Virus record (IMG/VR): IMGVR_UViG_3300025616_000044
Coordinates: 1 to 22,021 of that record
Reading direction: 5' to 3' (one strand)
DNA: 22,021 nt
Source of the DNA: a virus
Numbering within the stretch: position 1 is the stretch's first letter; every line of letters starts with the position of its first letter. The notes under the pieces were generated by a model, which saw nothing but the letters and a program-made list of their open reading frames with translations, ran no database searches and had not been told where the DNA came from. Shown here one piece after another: positions 15,988 through 21,040 of this stretch. The translations under genes were made by a program, and so were the position numbers.

Positions 15988-16202
15988 TGCTGTTTCTCCT
16001 TGGACAGTTTCGGCCCTGATTGCAATTCCCGTGGCAGGGAGGACACCGTTTCATTCTTGCTCCTCATTCTTTTGATCATCTTGTGGACGTTCTGGGGGCT
16101 GCAACCCAGAACCCTGGCTATTTCATTCATAGACGGCAACCGGCCTAGTGACTTCTCCAGACCACCGATTGCGTCCAATAACCGGATCTGAGCCATTCTC
16201 AT
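15984..16202 (-). CDS. Small HTH DNA-binding protein, 72 aa
   Basis: The central segment GRLPSMNEIARVLGCSPQNV, continuing HKMIKRM, is a clear helix-turn-helix: a turn after 'EIARVLG' and a recognition helix starting 'SPQNVHKMI'. The layout resembles the N-terminal winged-helix of LexA-type or sigma-like regulators but lacks any catalytic or dimerisation domain. The C-terminus is a basic, disordered tail (KLSKEKQQ). Overlap with the Erf gene (16199-16202) and with the next gene downstream implies coupled expression with the recombination genes. A transcription regulator or DNA-organising accessory factor is likely, with the target unknown. The palindromes in 18467-18523 are candidate binding sites, which is only a guess from co-localisation on the same operon. 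Confidence 0.8.
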   Translation of the reverse strand: MRMAQIRLLDAIGGLEKSLGRLPSMNEIARVLGCSPQNVHKMIKRMRSKNETVSSLPRELQSGPKLSKEKQQ

Positions 16203-16960
16203 GCCGCTGCTTTCATCAGCGCATCAAGAGCGCCGATTCGAGCTGAGAACGTCTGAAGGAACCTGGCACGTTCAACCATCGACAGCCGGTTCACTTCAGC
16301 GTCGTTAGCAGTACGCAGCAGCTTGAGCTTGGCAATACGATCAATCGGCGGCACTTTGCCGGCTTTCATCACGGCATCGGCCAGCGCATTGAACTCGATA
16401 ACCCATGCAGCTTCATCGGTAGACATTGAGCGTGGCTTGGCTTCGTTAGGGACGCGCAATGCCCAAGTGCCACCAGCTCCATCCTCAAATTCAATCACGT
16501 CTGGCGGCGGCTCAGTGGGCTTCGGCAGCGCTTTGGGTGCTACCGCATCTAGAGGGTTTGCCGGCTTTACCTCGGGCTTCTGAGGCGGCTTCCTGCTGGC
16601 AGCATTGCCGTCATCATCCTCGGCAGCAATACCGCACGCAGCCATCAGCGAATAGCGCCGAGCGTAAGTCAATGCCGAGCCATACCCTTGCGGGTCGTGC
16701 TTTGCTGCTGGCACGTGCAGCTTGCCCATGCGTAGCGTTTCACCCGACTCGTGCAAGAAACACGTCTCCACAGTTACGCCGTCTTGGACATCAAACGTCT
16801 CCTGGTAAACAGCGATGCCGTTCTCAAGCAGAGCGTCATTGACTGCTTCCAAGCAGCTCGCAAGGTCGACGTACTTATTCTTGAAGTGAGAGTTTGTGTT
16901 GGTCTTGAGCGCTGGTGCAAACGCACGCTTGGCTGCGACAAATGCTGCTGCAATTTTCAT
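16199..16960 (-). CDS. erf: Erf-family single-strand annealing recombinase, 253 aa
   Basis: Hallmarks of the ERF superfamily are clear in the first 120 residues: NSHFKNKYVDLASCLEAVND, ALLENGIAVYQE, then HDPQGYGSALTYARRYSLMA and CGIAAEDDDGNAA. Erf proteins such as that of P22 form rings on single-stranded DNA, anneal complementary strands and support circularisation and recombination of the phage genome. A Pro/Lys-rich linker (PPQKPEVKPANPLDAVAPKA) follows, then a C-terminal helical domain. The ATG overlaps the stop of the exonuclease gene (16957-16960), so the annealing protein and its partner nuclease are translationally coupled. Length is in the family range. No defects are seen. Confidence 0.92.
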   Translation of the reverse strand: MKIAAAFVAAKRAFAPALKTNTNSHFKNKYVDLASCLEAVNDALLENGIAVYQETFDVQDGVTVETCFLHESGETLRMGKLHVPAAKHDPQGYGSALTYARRYSLMAACGIAAEDDDGNAASRKPPQKPEVKPANPLDAVAPKALPKPTEPPPDVIEFEDGAGGTWALRVPNEAKPRSMSTDEAAWVIEFNALADAVMKAGKVPPIDRIAKLKLLRTANDAEVNRLSMVERARFLQTFSARIGALDALMKAAA

Positions 16961-17913
16961 TTCGACACCTTGATGGTGATGGTGGACTGGCGCATAGAGT
17001 GCGCTGGTTTGGCAGGAACGATCTTCTCCGGCTGCGCTGCATAGTTACGGATCGGCCAGGAGATACGGAATTCTTCAGCGTGCGCCAGCGTGGCGTTGCC
17101 AAGCATTTCTTTCAGCTCGGTTTCGTTGTCTGCAATGCTTGCCTCAAGAACCTTGATTTCCTGCTTGGCTTTGACAATCCGCTCGGCCAGCGTGGCTCCC
17201 CAATCGCCAAGATCAACAGAGTCAAGGTTTGGATCGCCAGGCCACTTGGTGCCGTACTCCTCGGGAGTGGCAGGGTCGTACCACTCAACTTCGCCGGTCT
17301 CCGTCCAATGCAAAATCTTGGACTCAAACTCAAACGCTTTCTTGCGGATTAGCGCTTGCGTCTCTTCATGAGGAGCGAACAGGAATATCCGCAGCTCGAT
17401 GCCTTGATACAGAACACAAACGGCTCCCCACTTGGCGCCGGTGATGTCCATCTGCGCTTGGAGCTGTAGAGGACCACGGCTCATTGCTGGACAATCTTCG
17501 GGATATGAGCTGGTGAGCTTGGCTTCGAGCACGCCAACGCCGTCGAGCGTGATGCTGTCCTGGCCGATCACGTATACGCCGGCATCTGGGTTGTTGGTCA
17601 CGACCAGACCGTTGCCGTCACCGTTGCCGTCTAGCGAACAGGCGATCGGTGCGTCAGGATGGAAATATGCTTTTGGATGGTCGAGCACTAGATTAGACAA
17701 TGCTAAACGTCCCGACGCTTCCAGCAGAAGCGGAACCTCGAGCAGATTGCCCCAGTGCATTGCTTCGTTGGTCTTAAAAGGCGTTTCAACGTCCTGTAGC
17801 GCGTTCAACACGCTCTTGAGTACATCGTTGGGCGTCTCATACTTTGAGTGGCCCAGAAGGGCCGGGACGCGGCTTGCGCTGAGCATTGTGTTAGGGGTTA
17901 CTTTGCCGACCAT
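16957..17913 (-). CDS. YqaJ-type viral exonuclease (PD-(D/E)XK), partner of Erf, 318 aa
   Basis: The N-terminus LSASRVPALLGHSKYETPND has the YqaJ/lambda-exonuclease-like 'S.S..PALLG' motif. Catalytic motifs follow in order: WGNLLEVPLL (E60), CSLDG (D95), VLEAKLTSS (E130, K132) and LQLQAQMDITGAKWGAVCVL (Q154). This is a PD-(D/E)XK nuclease expected to degrade the 5' strand of linear duplex DNA and load the Erf annealing protein made from the next gene. The C-terminal ~90 residues hold a coiled coil (RIVKAKQEIKVLEASIADNE) and a basic end, possibly for partner contact. The start is supported by GGAGG (17920-17924, 6 nt upstream). The upstream small gene ends in TAATG with this start. Confidence 0.9.
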   Translation of the reverse strand: MVGKVTPNTMLSASRVPALLGHSKYETPNDVLKSVLNALQDVETPFKTNEAMHWGNLLEVPLLLEASGRLALSNLVLDHPKAYFHPDAPIACSLDGNGDGNGLVVTNNPDAGVYVIGQDSITLDGVGVLEAKLTSSYPEDCPAMSRGPLQLQAQMDITGAKWGAVCVLYQGIELRIFLFAPHEETQALIRKKAFEFESKILHWTETGEVEWYDPATPEEYGTKWPGDPNLDSVDLGDWGATLAERIVKAKQEIKVLEASIADNETELKEMLGNATLAHAEEFRISWPIRNYAAQPEKIVPAKPAHSMRQSTITIKVSK

Positions 17914-18023: not shown

Positions 18024-18186
18024 CGCTCGGCTCCTCGTTTTGTACTGACGTCAAAGTGACAAATTCTTCTTCGCGGTAAATTTGAAATTCAAGATTTTTG
18101 AATTCGTAATACACCTCAATAACTTCTCGATGAACATAATCAAGAATGATTTTTTCTATTTCTTTTTTGTTAAATGTAATTTTCAT
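18013..18186 (-). CDS. Small A+T-rich hypothetical protein, 57 aa
   Basis: The ORF begins at ATG 18186 with a strong Shine-Dalgarno (AAGGAG, 5 nt spacing) and ends at TGA 18013-18015, overlapping the next start by 11 bases. The product opens MKITFNKKEIEKIILDYVHR and continues EVIEVYYEFKNLEFQIYREE to an acidic end EEPSDET. It is charged, with alternating hydrophobic residues typical of a small alpha/beta protein. The DNA is visibly more A+T-rich than its neighbours, with many AAA and GAA codons, which hints at a separate origin. No family or function is recognised. Confidence 0.75.
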   Translation of the reverse strand: MKITFNKKEIEKIILDYVHREVIEVYYEFKNLEFQIYREEEFVTLTSVQNEEPSDET

Positions 18187-18201
18187 AATAGCTCCTTGAT
18201 T

Positions 18202-18668: not shown

Positions 18669-19091
18669 ATGATGACGTTGCAGTTCACCATCCCTGGGCC
18701 ACCCGTCGGCAAGGGCAGACCACGGTTCAGCACGCAGGGCGGCAAGCCCCGCAGCTACACGCCGGCTGTCACGCGAGAGTACGAAGCACTGATAGCAGCG
18801 CGAGCTGCTGAAGCAATGGCCGGCAGAGAACCACTCAAGACGCCGTTGAGAGTCATGATCGAGGCGACCATGAGCATTCCGCTGAGCTGGTCGAAAACAA
18901 AGCGCCAGGCGGCGTTAGATGGTGATGTATATCCATCGCGGCCAGACGTCGACAACATTGCCAAGACCGTTTTGGATGGGATGAACGGCGTGGTTTACGA
19001 GGACGATGCCCAGGTCACGCATTTGAAAGTCAATAAAAAATATGCCCAAGAGGGATCGGTCACGGTCTGGTTGTCGGAGAATCTCAAATGA
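18669..19091 (+). CDS. rusA: RusA-family Holliday junction resolvase, 140 aa
   Basis: The protein begins LQFTIPGPPVGKGRPRFST with the typical N-terminal strand 'P.P..KGRPRF'. The catalytic motif follows: RPDVDNIAKTVLDGMNGVVY, then EDDAQV. D93, D95 and an aspartate at 112/113, with K99, correspond to the catalytic Asp residues and Lys of RusA. It should resolve four-way junctions and other branched DNA formed during phage recombination or replication. AAGGAA lies about 9 nt before ATG 18669; the alternative start at 18672 would remove one residue. It is the first gene of the rightward early operon, opposite the exonuclease/Erf genes, and its stop overlaps the next start by ATGA. Confidence 0.92.
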   Translation: MMTLQFTIPGPPVGKGRPRFSTQGGKPRSYTPAVTREYEALIAARAAEAMAGREPLKTPLRVMIEATMSIPLSWSKTKRQAALDGDVYPSRPDVDNIAKTVLDGMNGVVYEDDAQVTHLKVNKKYAQEGSVTVWLSENLK

Positions 19092-19255
19092 GCAAAAAGG
19101 CAAATACCGAAGCAAAAAGACGACTGGAACGGATGCCCTACAGACTGATGGACATTAACGGAAAACCCGTCAGAGATTATACAAAAACCGAAAAGGAGAT
19201 CGTAAAAGAAATCAAAAGAGAGTACGAAAGCAGCCTCAAAAACAACCAGTCATAG
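19088..19255 (+). CDS. Small basic protein, 55 aa, upstream of the origin-like region
   Basis: This short ORF starts with ATG 19088, overlapping the RusA stop as ATGA, and ends at TAG 19253-19255. The protein is MSKKANTEAKRRLERMPYRL, then MDINGKPVRDYTKTEKEIVK and EIKREYESSLKNNQS. It is highly charged, with many Lys, Arg and Glu, and is predicted to be helical with a likely amphipathic C-terminal helix. Nucleic-acid binding or a partner-protein role is possible, but no family is recognised. It ends only 2 bp before the first DnaA-box-like repeat. That position, and coupling to a resolvase, suggests an early function. Confidence 0.75.
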   Translation: MSKKANTEAKRRLERMPYRLMDINGKPVRDYTKTEKEIVKEIKREYESSLKNNQS

Positions 19256-19431
19256 CCTGTGGATAACCTGTGGATAACTACCCTGAAAGCTGTGGATAAC
19301 CCTGTGGATAACCCTGTGGATAACTTTTCTTCATATACGCGTGCGCGTAGAGATCTAAGACTAAGATCTAAGACTAAGATCTAAGACTAAGAGAGCTAAG
19401 ACTAAGATCGAAGGAGAAGATCTGTGACTAA
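19256..19431. other. Origin-like region: five DnaA boxes plus GATC 13-mer repeats
   Basis: Between the small basic gene and the next gene lies a non-coding region laid out like a miniature bacterial replication origin. TGTGGATAA, the reverse complement of the consensus DnaA box TTATCCACA, occurs five times without mismatch and in one orientation, at 19258, 19269, 19291, 19303 and 19315. Starts are 11, 22, 12 and 12 bp apart, close to whole helical turns. A pyrimidine/A+T-rich stretch and the palindrome TACGCG-TG-CGCGTA (19336-19349) follow. Then come tandem 13-mers beginning with GATC (19352-19431), reminiscent of the GATCT-initial 13-mers of the E. coli oriC unwinding element. By established knowledge such clusters recruit DnaA. 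That the phage replicates from here, rather than titrating DnaA or being regulated by it, is inference. Confidence 0.75.
19352..19431 (+). repeat. Six direct repeats of a 13-bp GATC-containing unit
   Basis: Three exact tandem copies of GATCTAAGACTAA occupy 19352-19390. A 15-bp variant GAGAGCTAAGACTAA (19391-19405), a diverged GATCGAAGGAGAA (19406-19418) and GATCTGTGACTAA (19419-19431, 11 of 13 identical) follow without gaps. The diverged unit carries the AAGGAG Shine-Dalgarno, and the last unit covers the GTG start codon at 19424. The array is therefore both an iteron-like element and the translation initiation region of the next gene. Confidence 0.85.
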
Positions 19432-19681
19432 GATGAAAGACTCCATATTTAATTTTACTAAAGAAATAAGAGGAGGTTTGAAAAAAATAAAAGGTGCCCA
19501 AATAAGTAGCAAGCTGGTAAACGAATTGATTGCTCTGGACATGACGTCAGCGCAATTGCAAACCGGCATCGAATCGGTAATCAGACGCCGAATTGATGCC
19601 AAACAACCCGAGGTCGAAACAATGGAGGAGCTTTTATCCGAAGTTGTGACTGACCAAATCCTGAGAAACAATCTAAAGTGA
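19424..19681 (+). CDS. Small hypothetical protein encoded from the origin-like repeats, 85 aa
   Basis: The start is GTG 19424: AAGGAG at 19411-19416 lies 7 nt before it, while the in-frame ATG 19433 would be 16 nt away. The protein is MTKMKDSIFNFTKEIRGGLK, KIKGAQISSKLVNELIALDM, TSAQLQTGIESVIRRRIDAK, then an acidic segment VETMEELLSEVV. It is basic in the first half, acidic in the second and mostly helical, with no known motif. Its initiation region lies inside the GATC repeats, so protein binding to the repeats would affect its expression. A replication-linked role such as an initiator or regulator is possible only by position. Its stop overlaps the next GTG start. Confidence 0.78.
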   Translation: MTKMKDSIFNFTKEIRGGLKKIKGAQISSKLVNELIALDMTSAQLQTGIESVIRRRIDAKQPEVETMEELLSEVVTDQILRNNLK

Positions 19682-20058
19682 ATCAAATGAATAAACCAAT
19701 CGCAGCCAAAGGCACTTACGAGCAGAAACCCGGAAAAGGCGCAGCATTTCCGAATGACAAAAAGGTCGAGGATTGGCACGCCGATTACAAAGGACGGATC
19801 TGCTTGCCGGACGGTTCGATGCACTGGCTGGACGTGACGATCAAAACCGCTGCCAGCGGGATGCAGTACGCTGCAATTTCGATTGGAAACGCTTGCGAAC
19901 CGACCATCGCGGTCGATCATGGCCCCAAAAGGCATCCAGACGGCCACAGAAGCGGTTTCCAGAGCGTGACTGAGGCTACCCTACCAACCCGAGTCAAAAA
20001 CGCGCCACAGCCCCGCGCATCGGGTTTTGAGGATTTGGACGAAGACGTGCCTTTTTGA
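19678..20058 (+). CDS. SSB-like protein with acidic C-terminal tip, 126 aa
   Basis: The start is GTG 19678, overlapping the previous TGA (GTGA); ATG 19687 would remove three residues. The core reads FPNDKKVEDWHADYKGRICL, PDGSMHWLDVTIKTAASGMQ, then YAAISIG. This three-strand 'DYKG.I..PDG..HWL..W.KT...G..Y..I.IG' pattern occurs in small phage proteins of OB-fold-like appearance. The C-terminus ends in FEDLDEDVPF, matching the acidic tip of bacterial SSB (E. coli DFDDDIPF), which binds partners such as exonucleases and helicases. A Pro/Arg-rich linker precedes it. I infer ssDNA binding plus recruitment of host or phage repair proteins. The alternative is a protein that only mimics the SSB tip. 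Confidence 0.75.
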   Translation: MNQMNKPIAAKGTYEQKPGKGAAFPNDKKVEDWHADYKGRICLPDGSMHWLDVTIKTAASGMQYAAISIGNACEPTIAVDHGPKRHPDGHRSGFQSVTEATLPTRVKNAPQPRASGFEDLDEDVPF

Positions 20059-20636: not shown

Positions 20637-21040
20637 CCCTACAAGTCGGAGAATCAATTACCAGCATTCAGCTAAATGTTAGCGAGCTGCAAAAACAATG
20701 CGCTGGATTCAATGTTGAATTGGAAACTGTATTAACCCTTGCAAAGCAAATACATGGCGATGCAATAGCGTTAATAAATGAATGGGAAGAAAAGCATGAA
20801 ACCGATGATAGACGAACAAACGTCCGACCTATTTATGGAGGAGTGGCTATGCGACCTACTTGCGGATCCTGTCGATATTTCGAGCTTCTTGGAGGAGATG
20901 GGGAAACATCGTATATGGGCGAATGTCGACGCCGATCACCAGAGCTGCTGGTAGACGAGAGCGGCAACGAAACTCCTGCCTGGCCACCAGTGGACGATGA
21001 CCATTGGTGCGGCGAATACTCACCGGATACCCTTTCATGA
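20633..21040 (+). CDS. Cys-rich zinc-binding-type phage protein, 135 aa, with possible internal start
   Basis: ATG 20633 overlaps the previous stop (ATGA). The N-terminal ~70 residues are helical (ESITSIQLNVSELQKQCAGF, NVELETVLTLAKQIHGDAIA). The C-terminal ~60 residues form a four-cysteine module: PTCGSCRYFELLG, MGECRRRSPELL, and PPVDDDHWCGEYSPD, a pattern (CxxC, C, WCGE[YF]) common in small phage and bacterial metal- or zinc-binding proteins. A strong GGAGGAG (20837-20843) lies 5 nt before an in-frame ATG at 20849, exactly at the start of the Cys module. The module may therefore also be made alone (63 aa). The stop overlaps the DUF3310 start. Confidence 0.78.
   Translation: MTLQVGESITSIQLNVSELQKQCAGFNVELETVLTLAKQIHGDAIALINEWEEKHETDDRRTNVRPIYGGVAMRPTCGSCRYFELLGGDGETSYMGECRRRSPELLVDESGNETPAWPPVDDDHWCGEYSPDTLS
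20796..20954 (+). CDS. Possible overlapping 52-aa ORF in another frame (uncertain)
   Basis: In a different frame from the Cys-rich gene, ATG 20796 opens a 52-codon ORF: MKPMIDEQTSDLFMEEWLCD, LLADPVDISSFLEEMGKHRI, then WANVDADHQSCW. It is acidic and amphipathic, with a protein-like hydrophobic pattern, and a weak GGGAAG precedes it. It overlaps the middle of the Cys-rich CDS, whose residues there (HETDDRRTNVRPIYGGVA) look less protein-like. The alternative reading is two genes, this one and then the Cys module from 20849. I cannot decide between the models from sequence alone. Confidence 0.35.
   Translation: MKPMIDEQTSDLFMEEWLCDLLADPVDISSFLEEMGKHRIWANVDADHQSCW

Follow-up and report, generated by a model that had tools for sequence, protein, structure and literature searches.

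The stretch between position 19256 and about position 19490 of the analysed window, a 22,021-bp fragment of a viral contig, is likely to be a replication origin, predicted to be fired by host DnaA, of a P22-like phage lineage without a recognisable initiator gene. DnaA binding, unwinding, and origin function are inferred in this reading, and nothing about it is experimental; what has been shown so far is how the element is built, that it is conserved and under cis-constraint beyond protein coding, that duplex stability is lowest there, and that no gene for an initiator, helicase, or polymerase can be recognised. Among double-stranded DNA phages of this kind, it is usual to encode at least an initiator. 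No description of a phage origin relying on host DnaA alone was found in the literature searched, in which subscription journals were mostly not covered.

The genes of the window match those of P22-like phages, and its packaged-DNA stabilisation protein is related to that of Xanthomonas phage PBR31 and to those of uncultured podoviruses. The parts of the element and its neighbouring genes are listed in Table 1; small HTH-like proteins of 72 and 98 aa are also encoded. Translation of the gene directly downstream of the element most likely starts at the ATG at 19433, with AAGGAG upstream, and its 82-aa product is helical in a model, has no solved relatives, and gave no meaningful match in a fold search (best E 0.57). 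In the relative L184, the 55-aa gene is separated from box 1 by an inserted gene for a 203-aa DNA methyltransferase-like protein (L184:2922-3558; phrog_24333, E 1.6e-83), with the element intact. The early genes of another relative, G001 (L190/L191), include an ORF for a 155-aa Cys-rich HNH-like protein to the right of the SSB gene (rotated coordinates 1814-2281), possibly a homing endonuclease, for which no Pfam match over the cut-off was obtained.

Table 1. Parts of the putative origin and neighbouring genes, in window coordinates; percentages are majority identities.
Feature	Position	Strand	Remarks
ERF single-strand annealing protein	16199..16960	-	PF04404, E 4e-24
YqaJ / RecE-like exonuclease	16957..17913	-	PF09588 and phrog_434
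RusA Holliday-junction resolvase	18669..19091	+	PF05866, E 4e-35
55-aa ORF	19088..19255	+	after RusA, ending just before box 1; outside the element
DnaA box 1, TTATCCACA	19258..19266	-	exact match; 99.6% (31 distinct relatives)
DnaA box 2, TTATCCACA	19269..19277	-	exact match; 99.3% (31 distinct relatives)
DnaA box 3, TTATCCACA	19291..19299	-	exact match; 98.2% (31 distinct relatives)
DnaA box 4, TTATCCACA	19303..19311	-	exact match; 92.5% (31 distinct relatives)
DnaA box 5, TTATCCACA	19315..19323	-	exact match; 99.3% (31 distinct relatives)
Spacer CTTTTCTTCATATA after the boxes	19324..19337		nearly invariant, 99.5%
14-bp GC-rich block TACGCGTGCGCGTA	19336..19349		sequence variable in relatives, length kept
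Three perfect tandem 13-mers GATCTAAGACTAA	19352..19390		type 2 relatives carry GATCTTAGTCTTA there
Degenerate continuation of the 13-mer array	19391..19432		GATC at 19406 and 19419; Shine-Dalgarno AAGGAG at 19412-19417
AT-rich stretch in the next gene, codons 1-19	19433..19490		synonymous sites frozen; probable unwinding region together with the GATC block
82-aa protein gene	19433..19681	+	first gene after the element; highly conserved, without assigned family
SSB-like protein	19690..20058	+	phrog_18154, E 1.7e-5

A preliminary description made from the sequence alone had claimed five perfect minus-strand DnaA boxes in one orientation with rough helical phasing, followed by a palindrome and a run of GATC 13-mers, all within 19256-19431. 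The boxes held as exact matches (19258-19323), and these are the only five copies of TTATCCACA in the 22-kb window. Shuffled windows contained a mean of 0.11 perfect boxes, and none of 100 shuffles reached five; a DnaA box cluster beyond chance, which is one criterion of an oriC-type origin, is present. With start-to-start spacings of 11, 22, 12, and 12 bp, the helical phasing of the boxes is only rough. The palindrome held in part, as TACGCGTGCGCGTA is self-complementary at 12 of 14 positions and it is not the palindrome that is kept in relatives (see below). The run of 13-mers was confirmed as three perfect units and a degenerate continuation, and five GATCs (19352, 19365, 19378, 19406, and 19419) fall within 71 bp (19352-19422), so that raised GATC density, a further oriC-type criterion, is also met in the window. 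The limits of the element had to be corrected, since the conserved element runs on to about 19490. In total, the sequence of boxes, GC block, GATC 13-mers, and AT-rich stretch spans approximately 235-240 bp, and all five boxes are oriented away from the presumed unwinding region.

With neighbouring proteins as queries, 57 and 36 viral loci were recovered. The check for conservation in related phages that had been proposed with the preliminary description was positive, as the element is found at the same locus in every recovered relative spanning the site (35 distinct versions from about 40 viral contigs). These 35 elements hold 174 box-like words, about five each, with three to five perfect boxes per element; worn boxes mostly read TTGTCCACA or TTATTCACA, and box 4 is the one most often degraded, to TTGTCCACA. 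The boxes (92-99.6%) and the spacer (99.5%) are better conserved than the flanking coding DNA. The GC-rich block is 14 bp long in all relatives and, with varying sequence, consists mostly of alternating pyrimidines and purines in 31 of 35 elements; the palindrome is less conserved than this alternation. The 13-mers occur in two concerted versions, GATCTAAGACTAA and the polarity-flipped GATCTTAGTCTTA. In L011, L012, L013, L038, L181, and L185, the CTAAG words of the 13-mer array have, almost without exception, changed to CTTAG together, including the non-tandem copies, and this switch is explained neither by simple inversion nor by a co-varying protein.

The GATC triplet at 13-bp spacing is the only one in five of six relatives and is absent in G002. 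When viral contigs were searched for a box and, 10-40 bp after it, three GATCs spaced 13 bp apart, 37 contigs out of 2.9 million carried the pattern, and those examined all belong to the phage family of the window, including four newly found contigs that were assigned on inspection. The same pattern was absent from 84,980 bacterial and archaeal genomes searched. Neither the element pattern nor the 82-aa protein family led to a host when bacterial genomes were searched, and named-phage and plasmid DNA either did not match the whole locus or matched in box words only.

Duplex stability was calculated from nearest-neighbour energies for the window and six relatives. In all seven records, the 150-bp stability minimum of the entire record adjoins the boxes at approximately 4-5 s.d. 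below the mean and starts about 89 bp past the start of box 1 (range 62-98 bp, the value of 62 bp stemming from G001, a contig that ends inside the element). The 50- and 100-bp minima are also located at the element in three closed genomes; the 100-bp minimum of the window and of G003 is located elsewhere. An adjacent AT-rich putative duplex unwinding element, the third oriC-type criterion, is therefore met by duplex stability, with unwinding itself being inferred. A second very AT-rich stretch of the window (18053-18190), which lies partly within a 57-aa leftward ORF and partly beside it, is comparable to the element in duplex stability at 100 bp. DnaA-trios beside the boxes do not form a run of four or more, except for an A-rich run at 19482. 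The left flank, consisting of the 55-aa gene, was rejected as unwinding element (stability percentile 0.8-3.3, not a minimum) and as part of the element, its synonymous diversity being ordinary and a gene being located between it and box 1 in L184.

In the gene to the right of the element, synonymous diversity amounts to 0.03 at codons 2-18, compared to 0.25 over the remaining codons. Selection of the ordinary kind at gene starts is insufficient to account for these frozen codons because the same stretch in six control genes gives values of 0.16-0.41. As the first 17 codons of this gene are frozen at synonymous sites, the cis-element extends to about 19490, and a constraint beyond protein coding acts within the element and reaches approximately 57 bp into the coding sequence. 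Nearly frozen synonymous sites were also observed inside a 135-aa ORF (20816-20866; 0.03 over 17 codons), where they probably mark an internal start at ATG 20850 with GGAG, as inferred from sequence alone.

In three relatives, the two ends are identical over 88, 127, and 123 bp, so that these records close into circles of 33,505, 31,345, and 31,239 bp, respectively, in which every perfect box falls in the array. Gene content was assessed in the first closed genome from an ORF map and by scanning the early genes for protein families, and in the window and all six relatives by searches. Neither an O-like initiator over the cut-off nor a DnaB-type helicase was found in the six relatives and the window, no DnaA gene was found in the six relatives, and no family-A polymerase in the four relatives searched for it. 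The earlier statement that the window encodes no initiator, helicase, or polymerase thus held and is extended to the closed relatives. No integrase or repressor was recognised. PF13730 gave no match over the cut-off in G000-G006, in which phrog_270 and phrog_391 did not match either; a single weak HTH_36 / PF13730 match in G004 remained below the cut-off. Matches to these initiator families were obtained outside the array clade, with L041 matching PF13730, phrog_270, and phrog_391, MW202520 matching PF13730 and phrog_270, and MW202674 matching phrog_270. L041, the nearest outgroup contig, encodes a YqaJ homologue and an SSB-like protein with 62% identity over 58 residues, and at the corresponding place it has a 330-aa protein matching O-like replication-initiation families and no box array between the YqaJ and SSB genes. 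The P22-like phages PBR31, MW202674, and MW202520, which have the stabilisation protein in common with the window, carry genes for replication, and none of them has more than one perfect box. The genomes with the array are thus those without an initiator in this small comparison, which covers a handful of lineages and is not a statistical test.

DnaA boxes in tandem are not restricted to this family. A scan of viral contigs for three close boxes yielded at least 119 stretches in many kinds of phage, and among named phages such arrays are present in the T5-like Spc35, where the array lies in the terminal repeat, in several Klebsiella and Escherichia podophages, and in Streptomyces phages. Because arrays are common in phages and at least two array-bearing contigs outside the family encode Pol A, an array by itself is not enough to infer an origin; what carries the argument here is that a weak duplex is attached to the boxes, that cis-constraint acts on the element, and that an initiator is missing. 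The arrays of many unrelated phages (viral contigs L062-L176) consist of 3-12 tandem boxes in the same direction. Of 104 loci outside the family, 32 have DNA belonging to the least stable 0.5% on the 3' side of TGTGGATAA, compared to 11 on the opposite side, although the contigs are not independent; the 3' side is also where the weak duplex lies in the element of the window. Similar arrays, 78-83% identical over about 60-75 bp, also occur on small endosymbiont plasmids of Palibaumannia (NZ_CP011788) and Buchnera (NC_017260).

In the proposed mechanism, host DnaA-ATP would bind the five tandem boxes and form a head-to-tail oligomer, the strain of which would open the adjacent weak duplex formed by the GATC 13-mers and the AT-rich stretch. 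Host helicase, primase, and polymerase would then be loaded at the opened duplex and copy the circularised genome. The phage-encoded ERF, YqaJ-like exonuclease, RusA, and SSB-like protein would turn the early products into concatemers by recombination for headful packaging. The HTH-like 72- and 98-aa proteins, the role of which is unknown, may be origin binders. Should the host have Dam, the dense GATCs could, as a matter of speculation, couple firing to the methylation state of the host.

The oriC-like replicator proposed in the preliminary description is supported by the conserved array at the same locus in the relatives, by the stability minimum beside the boxes and the frozen synonymous sites, and by initiators being absent from closed genomes but present in array-less relatives; its function has not been shown. 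Misfits to the E. coli scheme are the box direction, the 13-mer consensus, the lack of a trio run, and the flip of repeat polarity in some relatives. Box direction alone is not fatal because it is reported to differ among oriCs, and one box of T. maritima can be inverted without loss (PMC10316083). The GC-skew check suggested earlier was run and showed one positive arc following transcription without a bidirectional V shape; since the skew tracks gene direction, it is uninformative for or against an origin. A bolder reading, toward which the evidence leans only slightly, is that a lineage of tailed phages lost the initiator module that its relatives have and now uses a stand-alone oriC-like replicator in its place, for the firing of which host DnaA alone would suffice; boxes pointing away, an alternating GC block, and GATC 13-mers of flippable polarity make up its architecture.

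The main rival, already offered in the preliminary description, is a DnaA sink similar to datA, in which the boxes titrate host DnaA and block new rounds of host chromosome replication while the phage replicates otherwise, e.g. by recombination-dependent replication. This is unlikely, having been weakened but not excluded. In its favour, many unrelated phages have tandem boxes in the same direction, including some that encode a Pol A themselves, and each new copy of a multiplying genome would add five perfect boxes that draw on the DnaA pool. However, a sink leaves the frozen synonymous sites, the stability minimum, the GATC 13-mers, and the fixed order and distances unexplained, and the phage would be left without a recognisable way of starting replication. 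Features of datA are a box cluster with an IHF site and no unwinding element; the box cluster is present here, but a strong unwinding-type region is attached to it.

It is likewise unlikely that the element is a promoter or operator at which DnaA times transcription of the operon for the 82-aa and SSB-like proteins. DnaA is a known transcription factor (reviewed in PMC8203912), the element lies directly upstream of co-directional genes, and the spacer CTTTTCTTCATATA is nearly invariant. A scan, however, found no sigma-70-like promoter, the constraint extends into the coding sequence, and the GATC repeats would be unexplained. Still less support remains for an origin of the iteron type to which a small phage protein, so far unrecognised, would bind, such as the HTH-like 72- or 98-aa or the 82-aa protein, with DnaA as a helper as in the plasmids P1, F, and RK2, which is very unlikely. 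The 13-mers are iteron-like and switch in concert between GATCTAAGACTAA and GATCTTAGTCTTA, but no residue of the HTH72, 82-aa, SSB, RusA, 55-aa, 98-aa, and 135-aa proteins separates the two repeat types, and identical HTH72 and 82-aa proteins occur with both. None of the well-sampled early proteins varies together with repeat type, which speaks against a phage-encoded iteron binder; the few differences by repeat type in the 90-aa, 72b, and 76-aa proteins are supported by only one or two sequences of type 2. Moreover, neither HTH-like protein is similar to the outgroup initiator, and no cognate Rep protein was recognised. A structural role as packaging site, T5-like injection stop signal, or recombination hot spot is all but excluded: T5-type injection stop signals have been described with repeats, palindromes, and DnaA boxes (PMC13250531), but the T5-like example found sits in a terminal repeat, whereas the present element is several kb from the terminase genes and interior in most contigs, the cut points of which vary. 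Position was the ground for rejecting both an injection signal and a packaging site; the terminal-repeat location expected of a T5 signal does not apply to the element, and three relatives close as circles.

If the preferred reading of an origin fired by host DnaA is true, viral replication would be tied to the most tightly controlled cell-cycle switch of the host, which raises the question of how the phage escapes from this control. The element would also represent a small natural origin (approximately 235 bp) with conserved parts, in which rules on box direction, GATC spacing, and the GC block are directly testable, and it would give meaning to many unexplained DnaA-box arrays of phage genomes.

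Among phage systems, origins of the lambda/P22 type, which use an O or gp18 initiator and a helicase loader, belong to the same phage group as judged by P22-like head genes and also combine repeats with an AT-rich stretch near recombination genes. The lambda origin is located inside gene O. In contrast, the phages of the window's family have no recognisable initiator or loader gene, so that the initiator-gene criterion of an O/gp18 initiator-origin module is not met in the array clade, and the sites of the element are host DnaA boxes. Iteron plasmid origins of P1, RK2, F, and pSC101 share direct repeats, DnaA boxes, and AT-rich 13-mers with the element (PMC5043065) but need a plasmid Rep protein, for which no counterpart was found. 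The T5-type injection stop region and the box arrays of T7-type and other phages are similar in having tandem DnaA boxes on a phage genome; two of the phages tested, however, encode their own DNA polymerase A, and the architecture of boxes plus GATC 13-mers was found only in the family of the window. An origin predicted by Ori-Finder in Pseudomonas phage PseuGes_254 also has an AT-rich stretch with DnaA boxes and a GATC region, but this phage encodes a primase and a DNA polymerase, and the prediction comes from a single genome (PMC11512268).

The element is also close to oriC of E. coli, in which a DnaA box cluster lies beside AT-rich GATC-bearing 13-mers and a further AT-rich stretch, with a length of 245 bp compared to about 235 bp in the phage element and a high GATC density in both (PMC13220808, PMC5835720). 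The E. coli 13-mer consensus is GATCTNTTNTTTT. It is not met by the phage units GATCTAAGACTAA and GATCTTAGTCTTA, which match only in GATCT and the 13-bp period. Unlike in the left half of E. coli oriC and in B. subtilis, the phage boxes point the opposite way, away from the unwinding region. The phage element furthermore differs from E. coli oriC by the GC-rich alternating block between boxes and 13-mers, by the lack of neighbouring dnaA and dnaN genes, and by its location in a phage. Thus, the element fails the strict E. coli oriC type on 13-mer consensus, box direction, and trios but is inferred to work like a DnaA-oriC origin, and it is best described as an initiator-less, oriC-like phage replicator.
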